IMG/VR virus record: IMGVR_UViG_3300039449_000045
Span: 1-30,742 of that record
Source: a virus
Reading direction: 5' to 3' (one strand)
DNA: 30,742 nucleotides
Under the pieces are notes generated by a model. It was not told the origin of the DNA, did not search any database, and saw nothing but the letters and a program-made list of their open reading frames with translations. Shown here one piece after another: positions 18,773-27,185 of this stretch (position 1 is its first letter; each line of letters begins with the position of its first letter). Position numbers and translations under genes: made by a program.

Positions 18773-20822
18773 GTACGAATTTATAATCTCAGCTAAAGAT
18801 AAAACGGCCCAAGCGTTTGGCTCTGTAAAGTCGGGGCTTGGTGGCCTGAAAGAGAATGCGCTTAAAACCGCCACCGCCGTTGCTGGGGTAACTGCAGCTT
18901 TCGGCGCACTGATGGTTACATCAGCGAACAATGCAAAAGAGTTAAAATCTCAATCACAGTTGGCTGGTGAAAATGTAGAAACATTTCAATCTTTAGCTTA
19001 TGCGTTTGGAATGTTTAACATTGAACAAGAAAAGTTTGCTGATATATCGAAAGATGTTCAGGATAAACTAGGTGATTTCATCGCCACTGGCGCTGGCCCA
19101 TTCAAAGACTTCTTTGAACAGGTTGCACCAAAAGTTGGCTTAACAGTTGATGCGCTAAAAGATCTATCAAGTACCGATGTTCTAATTGCCGTAAAAAAGG
19201 CGATGGATGATGCAAATGTATCAGCCAAAGAGCAAGTGTTTTACATGGAAGCCATTGCAAACGATGCAACGCTTCTATTGCCAGCGTTAAAAAATAACGG
19301 GCAAGCAATAAAGGAATACGCCGAAGAGTTTGAAAATCTCAACTTGGCAATGAGTGAAGCCGAAGTTGATAAAATGGCAATGCTTGCAAAAGAGTTTCAG
19401 CGAATAGAAGCCACCGCAACAAGTATAGGCAATAAACTTGCCGCTAACTTTGCAGAGCCGCTTGGTGATATTCTCGAGATAATTGAGGACGAATTACCAG
19501 AGCACCTAATGAGAGCTGAAATAGCTTTCAAAGGAATGGCCGCAGGTATATTTGAAGTTTCCGCCGCATCAGCCCAGTTCGTTAAGTACAACCCATTTGC
19601 GCTACTCGCCTCAGGTATGAGCCCAGATGATGCGCAGAAGCAATACGATGATTTTAAAGGGACTGCAAATTTACTTTATGACGACATCAATAAACTCCAA
19701 GCCAAGATACAGGAGCTAAATAGCCCAAATTCAGGCGGAGAAGTAGAGATTATCTCTAACGAAGGTGTAAAAAAATTAGAGAATTCCTTTCTTAAATCCC
19801 TTGATATGATCGATTATATTAATGCTAATGCGTTTAACTTTGATGCAATTATGGCAGCCAATGCCTCTCAATATTGGGATGATTTCGGGGAAAGTGGGTT
19901 CTCAGCATTTGAGAAGGCAAGGGAAGGAGCTGACAGCTTTTTAAATAGTTTAGCTCTTATAGATGAAATAAACGCTAATTCGTTTGTTTTTGATGAGGCC
20001 ATGGCCGAAAACGCTACTGCGTTCTGGACCAACTTTGAGCAAAGCGGCTTCACTGCTTACGAAAACCTTCAAGCAGGTAATGAATCGTTTTGGAACCAAT
20101 GGCTAGAAGCGGCCCAAACCAACCTAACAAGCTTTGATGAACTATCAGCGTTTACGATTGAAAGCTTTTCTAACCAAATGGGGAATGCCTTAGAATCAAT
20201 CATCTTTGATTCTGAATCATTAGGTGAAGCTTTTCAGGGGGTAATGCAAAATATGGCGCGTGGAGTGGTTAACGCATTGGGCCAAATGGCCGCGCAATGG
20301 TTAGCCTATAAGATTGTTCAAATGACGGTGGGTAAGTCTACCGCCATTGCAGGCGCTGCAAACATGGGGCTAAATGCTCAAGCCGCATCATTACAAGCAG
20401 GTATAAACGCATACGCCAGTACAGCAGCGATTCCCGTTGTTGGCCCACCAGCCGCCCCGTTCGCTATGAAAGCAGCTTTAGCAGCAACACAGCCTATGGC
20501 ATTTGCAATTAAAGGGCTGTCAGCAGCTAGCGCGGCCGCTTCATTTGACGGTGGTGGTTATACATGGGACGGGGCTAGAATAGGCGGCATGGACGGAAAA
20601 GGGGGTAAGTTGGCCATGCTTCACCCTAGAGAAAAGATAATAGATCTTACAAAGAATAAGGCCGAAGAAAACCGAGTGAGCAATCAGAACATTGTGCAAT
20701 ATCAGATTGACCAAAGAGTAACAGTTAACGCAAACGGAGCAAATGCTAAATCATTTGTTAGGCCATTAAGAAAAGAGCAGCGCAAAAATATGCGTGAAAT
20801 AGAAAGCGTGGTAAGCAGATAA
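18765..20822 (+). CDS. H: tape measure protein
   Basis: A 685-residue tail-length ruler. The N-terminus (YEFIISAKDKTAQAFGSVKS) is typical of tape measures, with a hydrophobic helix at about 36-55 (TATAVAGVTAAFGALM). The middle is helical and contains two 50-residue tandem repeats (344-393, 394-443). A second hydrophobic region, rich in alanine, lies at about 525-595. The end has the FDGGGYTWDG and MLHPREKIIDL blocks common to the family. At about 1.5 angstrom per residue the tail would be near 100 nm, an inference from other siphophages. GTG 18765 overlaps the end of the T frame. Confidence 0.92.
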   Translation: MSKYEFIISAKDKTAQAFGSVKSGLGGLKENALKTATAVAGVTAAFGALMVTSANNAKELKSQSQLAGENVETFQSLAYAFGMFNIEQEKFADISKDVQDKLGDFIATGAGPFKDFFEQVAPKVGLTVDALKDLSSTDVLIAVKKAMDDANVSAKEQVFYMEAIANDATLLLPALKNNGQAIKEYAEEFENLNLAMSEAEVDKMAMLAKEFQRIEATATSIGNKLAANFAEPLGDILEIIEDELPEHLMRAEIAFKGMAAGIFEVSAASAQFVKYNPFALLASGMSPDDAQKQYDDFKGTANLLYDDINKLQAKIQELNSPNSGGEVEIISNEGVKKLENSFLKSLDMIDYINANAFNFDAIMAANASQYWDDFGESGFSAFEKAREGADSFLNSLALIDEINANSFVFDEAMAENATAFWTNFEQSGFTAYENLQAGNESFWNQWLEAAQTNLTSFDELSAFTIESFSNQMGNALESIIFDSESLGEAFQGVMQNMARGVVNALGQMAAQWLAYKIVQMTVGKSTAIAGAANMGLNAQAASLQAGINAYASTAAIPVVGPPAAPFAMKAALAATQPMAFAIKGLSAASAAASFDGGGYTWDGARIGGMDGKGGKLAMLHPREKIIDLTKNKAEENRVSNQNIVQYQIDQRVTVNANGANAKSFVRPLRKEQRKNMREIESVVSR
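19794..20093 (+). repeat. 150-bp coding tandem repeat in the tape measure
   Basis: Residues 344-393 and 394-443 align: both contain I-D-x-I-N-A-N-x-F-x-F-D, M-A-x-N-A and a W-x-x-F-x-x-S-G-F-x-A-Y/F-E core. The DNA has diverged much more than the protein, so the duplication is old. Confidence 0.75.
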
Positions 20823-21436
20823 TGTTTTTAGATATTCGTTTTCCCGATGATATAAGCCAAGGTTCTTCAGGCGGCCCATCATATAAAACAAGTGTGGTTG
20901 AATCGCTGAACGGTAAAAGAAAGAAAAATATCATCTGGACTTACCCGCTGCACTCCTATGATGTTTCTTATGCGGTAAGAACTAAGGCAGAGCTTGAAGC
21001 GGTGTTGTATATGTTCCATATATGCGAAGGCCGCGCTCATGAATTCCGTTTTAAAGATTGGTCAGACTTCAAGTCTTGCAACACTTATCAAACCCCCAGC
21101 GCATCAGATCAGATTTTAGGCTCTGGTGATGGCACAGCAACGGACTTTCAATTAATAAAAACGTATAGCATGTACGGCATTAGTAAAACGCGAAAAATTA
21201 CTAAGCCTGTTGCTGGAACGCTTAAAGTTGCCATTGATGGGGTTGAAACATCAGCCTTTACCTTTGATGAACTAGGTATGATTACATTTGATTCTGCCCC
21301 CGCACCAGGCACCACTGTATCGGCCGGTTATGAATTTGATGTTCCCGTTGAATTTGAAGATGATGAGCTTGAAGCTTCACTTGATAGTTACGCGGTTCGC
21401 TCTTCAAGCTTAGTGCTTCGCGAGGTTAGGCTTTGA
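20822..21436 (+). CDS. distal tail protein, DUF2460 family
   Basis: A 204-residue tail-tip protein. It opens with FLDIRFPDDISQGSSGGP, contains YAVRTKAELEAVLYMFH, then the GRAHEFRFKDWSDFK block (about 75-89), all diagnostic of DUF2460. This family corresponds to the distal-tail ring in gene transfer agents. It starts by TAATG overlap with the tape measure and is the first of four GTA-like tip genes in the usual order. Confidence 0.9.
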   Translation: MFLDIRFPDDISQGSSGGPSYKTSVVESLNGKRKKNIIWTYPLHSYDVSYAVRTKAELEAVLYMFHICEGRAHEFRFKDWSDFKSCNTYQTPSASDQILGSGDGTATDFQLIKTYSMYGISKTRKITKPVAGTLKVAIDGVETSAFTFDELGMITFDSAPAPGTTVSAGYEFDVPVEFEDDELEASLDSYAVRSSSLVLREVRL

Positions 21437-22278
21437 GAATTTTAGATGATGCTTTAATTCAGCATTTAGCGCTCAGCACTACAACGCTTTGTACTTGCTG
21501 GCGCATAAAGCGAAATGATGGGGTAGTTGAAACGTTTACTTCTCATGATCAGCCTTTCATCATCGATGGCAACACATACAAGCCAAGCGGTATATCTGAA
21601 ACTGAAACTCAGAACAGCATGGACTTAAAGGCTGACTCTGTTGAACTTAACGGCCTAGTGGAAAACGAAAGTGACCTAAGCGCTCAAATATTTTCAAAGC
21701 TTTACGACAAAGCGCAGATTGATATTTTCCAAACGGACTACACGAACCCACCTAACGAAGTTACAGCTTCATCGGTTATTTGGATAAAAACAGGTGTTAT
21801 CGGTGATATAGACCGAGAAAAAGGTAAGTGGGTGGTTGAAGCGAAAAGCTTAATTGATCTGCTCGAGCAAAAAACCATGCTGAAAACATCTCGCTTGTGT
21901 CGTGCTGAATTTGGTGATGAAAACTGCCGCGCCGATTTAACGCAATATCAAAAAACCGGCACAGTAACAGGAATATCAAACCGAACGCTTACCTTTGATA
22001 TTGGCAGTTTATCAACGGGCGATTTGGAGCAAGGAAAAGTTGAATTTACGAATTACGGTATTAGCTTTGACATTCTCAACAATTCAGGTTCAAGAGCAAC
22101 GCTTTCTGATTACATAGAGTTCAACCCAGTTGGTGAGCCTGTTGTGATCACGTTCGGTTGTAATAAGTGGCTGGATGATTGCGAGAAGTACGGCAACGTA
22201 ATTAATTTTTTTGGTGAACCTTATATACCGGACGAAGATGATTGGGCAGCGGGATATTTCAATACGATCAGCGTGTAA
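21433..22278 (+). CDS. tail hub protein, DUF2163 family
   Basis: A 281-residue protein of the DUF2163/BR0599 family, the gpL counterpart in GTA-like tips. The N-terminal domain has the LCTCWRIKRNDGVVETFTSH block (about 17-36). The C-terminal domain has four cysteines in the family pattern: two in SRLCRAEFGDENCRADL and two in FGCNKWLDDCEKYGNV, followed by NFFGEPYIP. In related hub proteins these ligate an iron-sulfur cluster. It starts at TTG 21433 in a TTGA overlap. It overlaps the next gene by 41 bases from ATG 22238. Confidence 0.88.
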   Translation: MRILDDALIQHLALSTTTLCTCWRIKRNDGVVETFTSHDQPFIIDGNTYKPSGISETETQNSMDLKADSVELNGLVENESDLSAQIFSKLYDKAQIDIFQTDYTNPPNEVTASSVIWIKTGVIGDIDREKGKWVVEAKSLIDLLEQKTMLKTSRLCRAEFGDENCRADLTQYQKTGTVTGISNRTLTFDIGSLSTGDLEQGKVEFTNYGISFDILNNSGSRATLSDYIEFNPVGEPVVITFGCNKWLDDCEKYGNVINFFGEPYIPDEDDWAAGYFNTISV

Positions 22279-22669
22279 GGCGGCCCATAGTTTTATTGGT
22301 ACGCCATACCGCCACCAAGGCAGGGCGCCGGGCGCGGGTTTAGATTGCATCGGTTTAGTTGTGGCATCACTTGAAGCTGCAGGCATAGATATTTCAGGCC
22401 TACCAAGTGACTATTCACACATACCAAAACCCAAAGTGATTCTTTCTAACATTGCTCGTTATTGTGATGTTGTTACAGAGTTGGCCCCTGGCGATATTTT
22501 AGTAATGGCCCTACGCACTCACCCTCAGCACTTAGCCTTATATGTTGGCGATAACCAAATTATTCATAGTTACATGGCCGCTGGCAAAGTAGTTAAGCAC
22601 GACTTAACCGACAACTATAAAAACAAGATACATTCAATTTACAGGATGAAAGATGGGCTTTTTATTTAG
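22238..22669 (+). CDS. tail peptidase, NlpC/P60 family
   Basis: A 143-residue cysteine peptidase. The catalytic cysteine is in GLDCIGLV (residue 37), the histidine in PQHLALYVG and a third polar position at IIHSY. NlpC/P60 tail proteins cut peptidoglycan during DNA entry. ATG 22238 is chosen as the start because the family begins close to the helix that follows; an in-frame TTG/GTG at 22211-22216 would add eight or nine residues. Its start is well inside the DUF2163 gene and its end overlaps the hub gene by 17 bases. Confidence 0.85.
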
Positions 22670-25600
22670 CGTAGACTTACCCGATCAAGAGGGCGAACGC
22701 CTTGATGATTTATCATCATCGCCCATTGGCTACGGTAAGCCAATCAACTTTGTAAAAGGCTTAAAGCGTGTTTCATGTACGCTTATTCATCAGTTCCCGC
22801 TAGTTGAAACGGTGCATGAAGAAGAAGTTGAGTCAGGCGGTAAGGGTGGTTCGTCTAGTTACACCAATACCACTTACACCTATTCAGCCACGTTTGCAGT
22901 GATGATATGCGCCCAAAGAATAAAAGGCATTCGCCGCATTTGGCTCAATAGCAAACTTTTTTATGAAAACCGCCCTTTTATGAGCGGTGATATTGCAGAG
23001 ACAAAGCAGGCCGCTGAATCAGTGTTTAATATTTACCATGGCACTGATGATCAACCCGTAGACCCTATTCTTCAATCAAAATTCGGGGCAAGAACGCCAG
23101 CTTATCGGGGCCGCGCTTATATTGTTTTCAATAATCTGCAACTTGCAGAATTGGGCAACCGTGTTCCAATGGTGGACGTTGAAGTGGTTGAAAGTGGCAC
23201 TGGCTCAACTTCAAACACCCCGATACCTTACCCGCTTTATTTGCGTGATTTGGTCGGTGATATTTGTGTACGTTCTGGCATTCCAGAAAGCCGCGTTGAT
23301 GTGTCTGAACTTGATGATGTGATTGATGGTTATTCTGTCAGTAAAGACACAAAAGGCAGTGAGCAGTTAAAGCCATTAATGCAGCTTTATAATTTTTACC
23401 CAAGTGAGCAGGGTGAAAAGCTGGTATTCAAAAAGAACCCGATACCTGTTAGCCGCCAAGAGCATGAAGAAAACTGTCTCATTAATGAAGATGGCCTAAT
23501 ATCGAATGCTTATCATCAGGTGCTTGGCCGCCAAGGTTATTTCCCACCGGAAGCAGGCACCAGTGAAGGGCAGTTTTTAATGCTTCGCGCTGCTTGTTTG
23601 GCTTATTTGCAAACCAATAATGAGAACTGGCTCAAAATTGTAAATACGCTAAGAGCGCCAATTGATAACTTATTTTTGAAAGCGCCCCCAGCGGATCCAA
23701 ATACGCTGTATATTCCCCACTGGCTGTTTGTTGTAAAGAACCCGGTTCAGTCTCAATCTGAAAACTTAAACATGCTGGTAACGCTGACCAAAAACGGTGA
23801 TACCTATGAAGGTTTTATTGCGCCAGGCTTCCCCAGTTACGGCGATAAAATAAAAACGGTTACGCGCTTATACTCAGATGAAGCCAGCTTTGTGGATTGG
23901 TACAACCCATACGCGGGGATTATTGGCACCGATTACGGGTTACCCGCTGAAGTTGTTACCAATGAGACAGGCACAACCATTAAGATCCCCGCATCACAGG
24001 TTGGCTTTGCAGCGAATATCAATGCAAATGCTATTGTGGTTTATGACTTTGGTTCAATTCTCGATGTGTCTCAAAACATGGAAGCCTGGCCTTATTGGCG
24101 GCCAATGTTGCCCGGTGAAATATCGTGCGCGGTGGATTCTATACCGTGGGCCATTGAAGCGTTTGATTTGTTGCACCAAGTAACGGGTGAGCAGCAATAC
24201 CTTGATGCTAAGAACGCATCAGTGCAAACCGCTTATAAAACCTTTGATGTTGATGATGGCCGTGGCTGGATAAGGCCAATTAACGGCGATGCTTTCAGCT
24301 TGTCGGGTACCTACATAAGCACAAGCCGTTCAGGGTTTAACGATGGCTCTTTGGTCAGAAACAGAGACTTAACGTTAAAAATACAAATTCCAGAAGCCGA
24401 AGGCGAAGCGCAGTATGGGCGCGGTGTAAAAGATGAAATACGCGCATCAGATACACACATACGCCTAGATTTTGGCATTAAAAATAATGTAGTTGGTAAC
24501 ATAAATTTCTTTGTTCAAAGCGGTAACGATGTAACCACCGCAACAAGATATTACAAAGAATATGTGGTTTTACCCAATACTAAAGATGGCCAATTTGATA
24601 TACCGCTCAGCGAGTTTGAGGCAAAAACGCTTAGGGTTGACGGTTGGTTTGCAACACCGGGTGCATTAACGCCAGGCACTGAAATTGATGTTGTAGGGTT
24701 TACGGTTGATACGCCTGAAGGCATGGAGATTGAATTAAGAGAAATTCGCCCAATCCCCGTGATTCAATTGCCTTATACGCCGTATATTGCCCCTTATACC
24801 GCCAATGCAATTAATGATTCTTTGATTGATTGGCGAGGTGCGCCCGGTGTGGGCTATCAAGACCCTGTATTATGGGCCGCGCTAAATGATTCAACTGCCC
24901 TTGCGGGTATGCTGGATTTTATTGAAGATAGCCAAGCTGAGTATGCTTTACGCTACACGGAAACGGGCCCGTTCGTACCTTCTTATGTGTGGAATAGGTT
25001 TGACCGCCAGCAAGTGACTGATGCAAACCCCAATACCTGGACGTTTGAATGGGTGGATCCAAACAGTGAATGGGTGGGTTATACCGCTCGCGTCATTGCG
25101 GCATGTGGCTGGGCTGGTGATTTAGCAGCGGGTAACGGTGATTCAGCGAATGCAACGCGCTGCCTTAATGTTGCCGCGCAATTCATCACCTACTTAAACA
25201 GCGTGTGGACTGACTCAAACAAGTTTATACCCACGAACTTTCCTGAAACAATTCCAGTTATTGGAAGAAATGAAACGGTTGAGACTAGATCCATCGGCAC
25301 AATTTACAATGGTTTTGTTTATCGAGCAGACACAGGCGGCACCACTGGCACATCAGCGCCAACGTTCCCTACATCGCTAGGGCAAACCGTAACTGATGGT
25401 AGCGTGGTTTGGCGTTGTGCGGGTTACAGTTACGGCACAAGCCCAGTATATGGTGAATACGATGAACCCCATGCCGCCGCGCTATTCATGCGAGGGGCCG
25501 CGTTCTGTCATAAGAACAACGTAAACCAAGCCAATTCACTGGCGATTGTTCAGCGTTGCTGGGATTACCTTTCACGACTTTGGAATGATGCCTATGGTGA

Positions 25601-27185
25601 TGTTGCTGATACTTGGTCACATAACCCCGATTCAGCAGAATGGTTTGGCTTTTGGTCTGGTGAAATTGTTACTACGATTTCACAGTTACTTAATGAGCTT
25701 TCAAGCGTTCGCATCGCTGCAGGCATACCATCAGCAACCATTGAATCATGGTTAGCAGCCCATTCATCATGGTTAATATCTAAAACAAGAACATTGTCGT
25801 TTCAAGATATTGATGATTTTGTGATGAAAGATGGATATTCGCAAAGCCGCATAAAAGAAGCTAAGTTACCCAAGCAAGTTGAAGTTCAATATGCCAGCAG
25901 CGTAAGGAATGATTCTGATGATACCCGTTCAGCGGTATCAAGAAGTGCCAAAAGTGAAAAGACAGAAACCATAAAAAGCCCGGTCAATATGGACGGAGAC
26001 GAAGCCCTAAACCGCGCTTTTAAGTTGTTAATGCAAGCCTGGACGCAGAGAACATCATGGGAGTTTTCAACCATTGGCCGTATTTATCAGCCGGGTGATG
26101 TAGTTGAAAAGCTAGTTGATGGCGTAGTTCGCCAGATGCAATTTACTGAAGTCACTCAAGACCCAGAAGGCTTTCAAGAAATCAAAGCGGTTTCTTACGA
26201 TGGCAGCGTATTCACAAGTGGCCTGTTAAGCTCAGGCGACCCAAGAACGGCTTCAGGCATTAAAGCAATATCTTCATCGCTGGGTGTGTTTGTCGATATA
26301 CCGCTTTATCGTGATGATTATGATTCGTTTGGGTTTACTTCTTATGTCGTGGCTCAAGGTGACAACTGGCGAGGTGGGCGACTTCTTAAAAGTCCAGATG
26401 ATGGCGTTTATTCAAAAGTTGCTGAATATATTACTCAACCCACTTACGGCATTGTAGTTTCATTGGTGCCTGTTAAATCATATTATGTTCCCGATCTTAC
26501 TTCGCAAATCAGTGTGAGCATTACCGGCGGTGAACTTTCATCATGTAGCGCCGATGCTTGGTATCGTGGCGCTAACATGGGCCTATTTGGACAAGAAATT
26601 ATTTATTTTAAAGATGCTCAGTTGCAGTCCGATGGCACCTATACCCTAAGCAACTTATTGCGTGGCATGCGTGGCACACGAAACCAGATAAACACCCACG
26701 CCACCAATGAACGCTTCTTATTGTTATCAGGTGAAGGCTTAGTTAACGTTCCGCTAAACCGCGCTGATGTTGGCATTCCTTACTTTTACAAGTCCGTTTC
26801 AAATGGTCAGACTGAAGCAGGTGTTGAACCCATTCAGGCAACCATCAATTCAGTAAGAAAGAAACCACTTCAGCCGGCACACATAGCAATACGCCGCTTA
26901 GCTGATGGCCTTCACATTACATGGAAGCGTCAAACAAGATTAGGCGCAGCGTGGATTGATTCGGCTGATGTTCCACTTGGAGAGTCGATCGAGTCTTACT
27001 TGATTGAATTACGGAATGAATCTGGCGCAGTGTTAACAACGTTCAATGCAAGCCAGCCTAGCCAATTCATCAGTAACAGTGAATTAAACACACATTATGG
27101 CGATGTTAACGCATTGGCCTATGTTGCCGTGTGCCAAGTTAGCCCAGAGTTTGGTAATGGCGATTACATAGAGAGAACCGCATGA
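22653..27185 (+). CDS. J: central tail hub / host-specificity protein (GTA gp15- and gpJ-like) with large insert
   Basis: A 1510-residue protein. Residues 1-281 match the hub N-terminus of GTA- and lambda J-type proteins, with [20 protein letters not shown] and the [19 protein letters not shown] block. Residues about 1050-1510 match the C-terminal hub domains: [32 protein letters not shown], and [20 protein letters not shown]. Between them is a roughly 770-residue insert that is not part of the usual hub and looks like a carbohydrate-active domain. The protein would form the tail tip, contact the receptor and open the envelope. It overlaps its neighbours by 17 bases (peptidase) and ATGA (DUF2793). 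Confidence 0.88.
23493..25800 (+). other. glycosidase-like domain inserted in the hub protein
   Basis: Residues about 282-1050 interrupt the hub fold. The pieces are: a helix-rich start with paired aromatic helices ([36 protein letters not shown]), a beta-rich part (about 553-700), more paired helices (about 700-880), a small APTFPTSLG-type beta module (about 881-927) and a final helical part with [17 protein letters not shown]. Repeated helix pairs with W/H/D/E-rich turns suggest an alpha/alpha-barrel like those of many glycosidases and lyases. No catalytic pair could be assigned. Confidence 0.5.

Follow-up and report, generated by a model that had tools for sequence, protein, structure and literature searches.

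What is the long extra stretch in the middle of the central tail hub encoded by this marine phage record, and what might it do at the tip of the tail? The window, which is the whole record of 30,742 bases, presents the genes Dit, hub, NlpC/P60, megatron and fibre in the order found in RcGTA-type baseplates (Table 1). On the megatron itself, Pfam detects Phage-tail_3 at residues 1054-1152 (profile positions 44-147) and Rcc01698_C at 1264-1355, both above their curated cut-offs. The sole solved relatives returned by phmmer are RcGTA gp15 (6tba) and the R4C megatron (8gtc), which cover residues about 12-187 and those after about 1100, with RcGTA additionally covering 197-262. By alignment to RcGTA and R4C, residues 1-264 comprise the adhesin-like region and the first strands of the central domain; residues 1047-1510 hold the rest of Phage-tail_3 and the fibre-binding region Rcc01698_C. 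The window hub is an RcGTA-type 'megatron' carrying a foreign module. An earlier, sequence-only reading had taken both hub termini to be normal for GTA gp15-type proteins and had placed an NlpC/P60 peptidase next to the hub, and the flank alignments and the Pfam match bear it out on both points.

Table 1 Positions of the tail genes and of the hub features in the window
Feature	Position	Strand	Basis
DUF2460 distal-tail protein	20822-21436		
gp13-like hub	21433-22278		
NlpC/P60 peptidase gene adjoining the hub	22211-22669	+	PF00877, E 1e-13
Central tail hub ('megatron', RcGTA gp15-like)	22653-27185	+	1510-aa ORF
Hub chassis, N-terminal part (residues 1-264)	22653-23444	+	Aligns to RcGTA 55-210 and 766-829, and to R4C
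Inserted glycosidase-like module (residues 272-1046)	23466-25790	+	Homologue-defined boundaries; AF2 model
Unnamed module feature	23562-23672	+	AF2 model
E305 codon, TSEGQ motif; proposed catalytic acid	23565-23567	+	Invariance; motif as in GH8 BcsZ (E55) and GH48
First beta insertion of the barrel (residues 358-477)	23724-24083	+	AF2 model
D495 codon, [NC]AxD motif (here CAVD); proposed catalytic base	24135-24137	+	Invariance
Nested CBM11/CBM30/CBM4-like beta-sandwich (residues 533-705)	24249-24767	+	VIA-align
GYQDP motif (residues 734-738)	24852-24866	+	Co-linear with GH48 GYQNP
Motif at residues 800-810	25050-25082	+	Co-linear with GH48 DPPSNxWFGxQAW
Nested 46-aa APTFPTSLG mini-module (residues 883-928)	25299-25436	+	Module comparison
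Hub chassis, C-terminal part (residues 1047-1510)	25791-27182	+	Pfam; alignments

At its N-terminus the hub departs from those of RcGTA, R4C, RcBaka and Tetraselmis virus S20, all of which possess a hydrophobic iris/penetration segment (about 45 aa); alignment to these four finds no such segment in the window hub, which starts about 40 aa later than the segment-bearing hubs. Because an in-frame stop lies two codons upstream of the start, the segment is truly absent. The R9Y2 hub begins where the window hub begins (window 22653-22700).

The extra stretch had been placed at 23493-25800; it is real, and homologues show these limits to be accurate to within about ten residues at each end. The hubs of the Alteromonas siphophages R9Y2 and R7M align with the window hub from end to end (52% and 48% identity, respectively). 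H4/4 gp41, a protein of a T7-like Alteromonas podovirus, matches residues 274-1046 only, at about 50%, and in Klebsiella phage N133 the module is the start of a protein whose residues 3-726 match hub residues 272-1040. Because the N133 protein starts with the module and the Alteromonas podovirus fibre fuses it, the module limits are fixed independently. Pfam finds no domain within them. In RcGTA, R4C and RcBaka, an enzyme-like TIM domain follows the adhesin-like region, at a point equivalent to window residue about 180; the RcGTA structure assigns 230-744 to the peripheral domain and 745-984 to the central domain (PMC7296036). At the same site the window, R9Y, R7M and L017 hubs have only about 10-15 residues, and the window hub gives no Pfam match to the peripheral TIM-like domain GTA_TIM (PF13547). 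The module lies some 80 residues further on, as a loop within the Phage-tail_3/central domain of this RcGTA-type hub. These alignments show that bulky inserts are tolerated at two distinct places in GTA-type hubs. An AF2 model of hub residues 1-1191, built on four sequences, reached a pLDDT of only 43, and the position on the axis of DNA delivery that the sequence-only reading gave the module is conjectural. Other inserts, of about 350-480 aa, occupy the RcGTA-TIM site in the hubs of the Microcystis phage Mwe-JY26, Lacusarx and Kikimora (L038, L039 and L040).

It is highly improbable that GTA-type hubs carried the module ancestrally as a standard component, or that it is a chimera produced by assembly. 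Every Alteromonas hub relative found does carry it, but the hubs of RcGTA, R4C, RcBaka, Mwe-JY26, Lacusarx, Kikimora and S20 are without it at this site. The S20 hub, at 772 aa, has no insert, and its flanks run contiguously against the joined flanks of the window hub, in which the insert is extra. The hub alignments thus refute this reading: the region is standard within the Alteromonas subgroup only, which answers an objection that the sequence-only reading had raised against itself. An assembly artefact or chimera is ruled out because the composition equals that of the flanks (GC 0.46 in the module versus 0.44, with GC3 likewise matching) and the same hub-module join recurs in independent phages. 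A recent import of the module was also considered and is unsupported, GC and GC3 being equal to those of the flanks.

An AF2 model of the module, built on 13 homologous sequences, reached a pLDDT of 80.7 and a pTM of 0.75 and consists of paired helices with beta insertions. In module numbering, the helix pairs are 33-50/53-69, 223-240/243-260, 476-497/537-556, 560-580/668-683 and 688-708/728-740, plus 756-772, and the beta insertions fall at about 87-206, 262-457 and 610-654. The module is accordingly predicted to fold as a six-hairpin (alpha/alpha)6 barrel in which a CBM11-like beta-sandwich is nested. In VIA-align searches, the barrel matches GH48 Cel48F (1f9d) with Z 22.2 (rmsd 3.5, 382 aligned, 13% identity), GH76 (6u4z) with Z 22.1 and GH105 (3pmm) with Z 21.7, and ranks 1-22 are exclusively GH48, GH76, GH105, GH88 or a polysaccharide lyase. 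Because families within Z 1 of one another are tied, as several unrelated (alpha/alpha)6 families are here, the family cannot be named from the fold by itself. The beta-sandwich (module 262-434) matches CBM11 6r31 with Z 14.2 (rmsd 3.5, 157 aligned); CBM11 entries as a group score Z 12-14, and CBM30 and CBM4 also match. Among BFVD structures the nearest are those of R8W and N133. The AF2 model contains no beta-helix, the right-handed trimeric fold of classical tailspike depolymerases. The barrel of aromatic helix pairs and the beta-sandwich-like insert perceived from the letters are both recovered in the predicted structure. The nested APTFPTSLG-type unit is likewise present. The modules of N133, Parlo and VAP7 lack it, and it turns up by itself in other phages, for example in Microbacterium 'major capsid hexamer protein' genes, Caulobacter and Gordonia phages and a cyanophage, as a small travelling decoration. 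A match to PHROG 20658 'head decoration' was set aside, being confined to this mini-module.

Sequence profiles point towards one of the tied families. With hhalign, the module alignment matches a profile of three GH48 sequences (Paenibacillus, Streptomyces and Persicobacter) at E 8.7e-5 over 244 columns, including two co-linear motifs; a 42-residue segment that we took to be a cellulase motif served only to fetch GH48 sequences from the database. The score was 42-47 (41.9 with query-anchored columns), whereas none of 200 column-shuffled GH48 profiles exceeded 27.4 and the reversed profile scored 16.2. Neither a GH8 profile nor the hub control gave a significant hhalign match to the module. With a deeper profile of 19 rows, the significant GH48 match is still confined to the C-terminal half and does not extend to the N-terminal half. 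The C-terminal half of the module therefore bears real profile similarity to GH48, which suggests a remote relationship of the module to that family (clan GH-M). At the level of family models the module stays below threshold: the GH48 model PF02011 gives no match above cut-off, phmmer and hmmsearch of PDB sequences return no glycoside hydrolase, and the HMM search for such families that the sequence-only reading had proposed brought up nothing above threshold in Pfam or NCBIfam.

Conservation singles out two acidic residues. In an alignment of 19 divergent relatives, 16 columns are invariant, and the only acidic ones are E305 and D495 (module E34 and D224), unchanged in all 19 rows; E733 is Glu in 18 rows and Asp in one. 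In Cel48F, the catalytic acid is E55 and the base D230 (PMC4055089), the latter located in our GH48 alignment through its T226-N227-x-x-D230 spacing. By eye and without gaps, the TSEGQ region of the module can be laid against ETTSEAYSYW of GH48 and ITTSEGQSYGM of GH8, and its Asp motif against NAPDADARAVQA of GH48, NASDAExW of the phi92-type proteins and NSASDGDVW of GH8. The resemblance of these motifs to GH48/GH8 lies only in pattern and position; neither is aligned significantly by hhalign. We propose E305 as a candidate counterpart of the catalytic acid of GH48 and GH8, and D495 as one of the base of GH48.

On this evidence, we think it probable that the module is a virion-borne (alpha/alpha)6 glycoside hydrolase, distantly related to GH48 and equipped with a CBM11-like domain and an accessory module, that clears host surface glycan. 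Most likely it would act as an inverting endo-glycosidase on host surface polysaccharide; here we infer catalysis, inversion and substrate. The glycosidase suggested from the letters is thus supported by structure prediction and GH48 profile similarity, with enzymatic activity as the inferred step. On contact of the tail tip with the cell, a polysaccharide chain of an Alteromonas-type surface would be held by the CBM-like domain together with the cleft of the barrel. E305 would donate a proton and D495 would activate water in a single-displacement, inverting reaction, and the chain would be cut. Cutting would let three hub copies work down to the outer membrane, where the NlpC/P60 peptidase could next open the cell wall. 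By analogy with RcGTA and R4C, there are probably three copies of the module per virion, at the tail tip. The R9Y paper describes plaques with a turbid halo (PMC9430817); the R9Y hub module is 53% identical to that of the window, so the halo lends the depolymerase reading indirect support, and another enzyme could cause it.

The module might instead be a catalytically silent receptor-binding module, its barrel and CBM-like domain only binding surface glycan reversibly. We regard this as unlikely: both acids are strictly invariant at about 20% identity across Streptococcus, Klebsiella, Vibrio and Salmonella phage relatives, and binding modules usually lose catalytic residues. Speaking for it, the RcGTA and R4C papers treat the barrel and CBM domains of those hubs as binding sites (PMC7296036, PMC10276861). 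Alternatively, the barrel could host another chemistry, that of an unsaturated glucuronyl hydrolase (GH88/105-like), a lyase or an epimerase, and the fold comparison gives some ground for this, with GH105, GH88, GH76, polysaccharide lyase and D-glucuronyl C5-epimerases at comparable or lower Z. Yet GH48 lies far above its shuffled controls in a profile comparison that covered GH48 and GH8 only, and the TSE and NAxD motifs fit GH8/GH48, so that another chemistry seems distinctly unlikely and a GH48-related hydrolase remains the preferred reading.

The module also has relatives far from Alteromonas. A 13-row HMM matches phi92 gp141 (E 5e-80), SPLA10, brorfarstad, KLB24, SPN3US and Atoyac13 over nearly the full length of the HMM, with E from 5e-80 to 3e-68; VAP7 is a member of the HMM and so matches by construction. 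The phi92 gp141-like proteins show both a full-length profile match and the shared invariant residues. By tblastn, relatives occur in 245-353 phage records, found mainly through the 435-592 core, and those with the invariant acids include phages of Streptococcus, Klebsiella, Vibrio and Salmonella. One report, which cites Schwarzer et al. 2012, tabulates phi92 gp141 as a 'glycosidase' (PMC5380687); KLB24 bears the annotation 'glycosyl hydrolase' and Atoyac13 that of 'glycosidase'. The sources consulted report no enzymatic activity for any member. In a maximum-likelihood tree, the H4/4 module falls inside the Alteromonas clade (support 100/99) and groups, at 92/92, with those of the window and R9Y, a suggestive value that is not starred. 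The placement of H4/4 therefore suggests that the module is a cassette that moved between siphophage hub and podophage fibre. We see an even chance that the module and the gp141-type proteins belong to a single glycoside hydrolase family, unclassified so far, that descends from clan GH-M, extends across phages and acts on bacterial surface glycans. It would be a portable cassette, carried in the hubs of siphophages, the fibres of podophages and further tail proteins, and in Alteromonas phages it would sit at a second plug-in site of GTA-type hubs.

Three database observations stand beside these results. In Pseudomonas phage Skulduggery (L044, 3338-4762), a 474-aa ORF carries the C-terminal half of the module alone (profile 397-741), without the N-terminal half that bears the proposed catalytic acids. 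PBFM01000045.1 (L019, from a Neomarinimicrobiota MAG) and IMG/VR 2785511424 share the size 42,718 and match the same R9Y-like phage, and the former is probably a phage genome mis-binned into that MAG. The fibre genes adjoining the megatron in R4C (vBDshSR4C_017) and R7M (L035, 9194-9886; L006, 9735-10556) are labelled 'ribonuclease III' in GenBank, likely an annotation error; the R4C paper reports _017 in the virion as a fibre.

Among known systems, the megatrons of R9Y1/2/3 (vB_AmaS-) and vB_AcoS-R7M share hub, module, site and neighbours with the window, and the available text of the R9Y and R7M papers leaves the module undescribed (PMC9430817, PMC8265664). The modules of the podoviruses vB_AspP-H4/4 and vB_AmeP_R8W are about 50% identical to that of the window, and the R8W copy has the mini-module too, but in these T7-like phages the module is fused after the N-terminal part of a putative long tail fibre and not in a hub. 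The proteins phi92 gp141, SPN3US, brorfarstad, KLB24, Atoyac13, SPLA10 and VAP7 are full-length homologues that share the invariant acids and the motifs; the gp141-type relatives are separate proteins of 926-1209 aa from fibre or spike-like genes and are not part of a hub. GH48 cellulases (Cel48F, CelS; clan GH-M with GH8) give the best structural match and have co-linear motifs as well as catalytic motifs of similar pattern, whereas the module is below the PF02011 threshold and its accessory domains differ. The literature searched, which had most subscription journals outside its scope, yielded no phage GH48 depolymerase. The analysis links the phi92 gp141-type family to cellulase-type enzymes and offers a testable catalytic pair for this large family of phage proteins. 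If active, they would be depolymerases of unusual fold and could allow phages to exchange carbohydrate specificity across tail machines that are unrelated. RcGTA gp15 (6TBA) and the R4C megatron (8GTC) have the same hub chassis with an enzyme-like barrel inserted in the hub, but their barrel is TIM/mannanase-like and enters earlier, after about residue 210, at a site that is empty in the window. RcGTA carries its peripheral domain in the hub (PMC7296036), and the mannanase-like barrel of the R4C megatron contains a CtCBM11-like insert (PMC10276861). Since R4C sets this precedent, the combination of a sugar-enzyme barrel and a CBM in a GTA-type hub is already known. What the window adds is a barrel of the unrelated (alpha/alpha)6 type, a second point of insertion, the link to GH48 and, for the phi92 gp141-type family, a candidate pair of catalytic residues.
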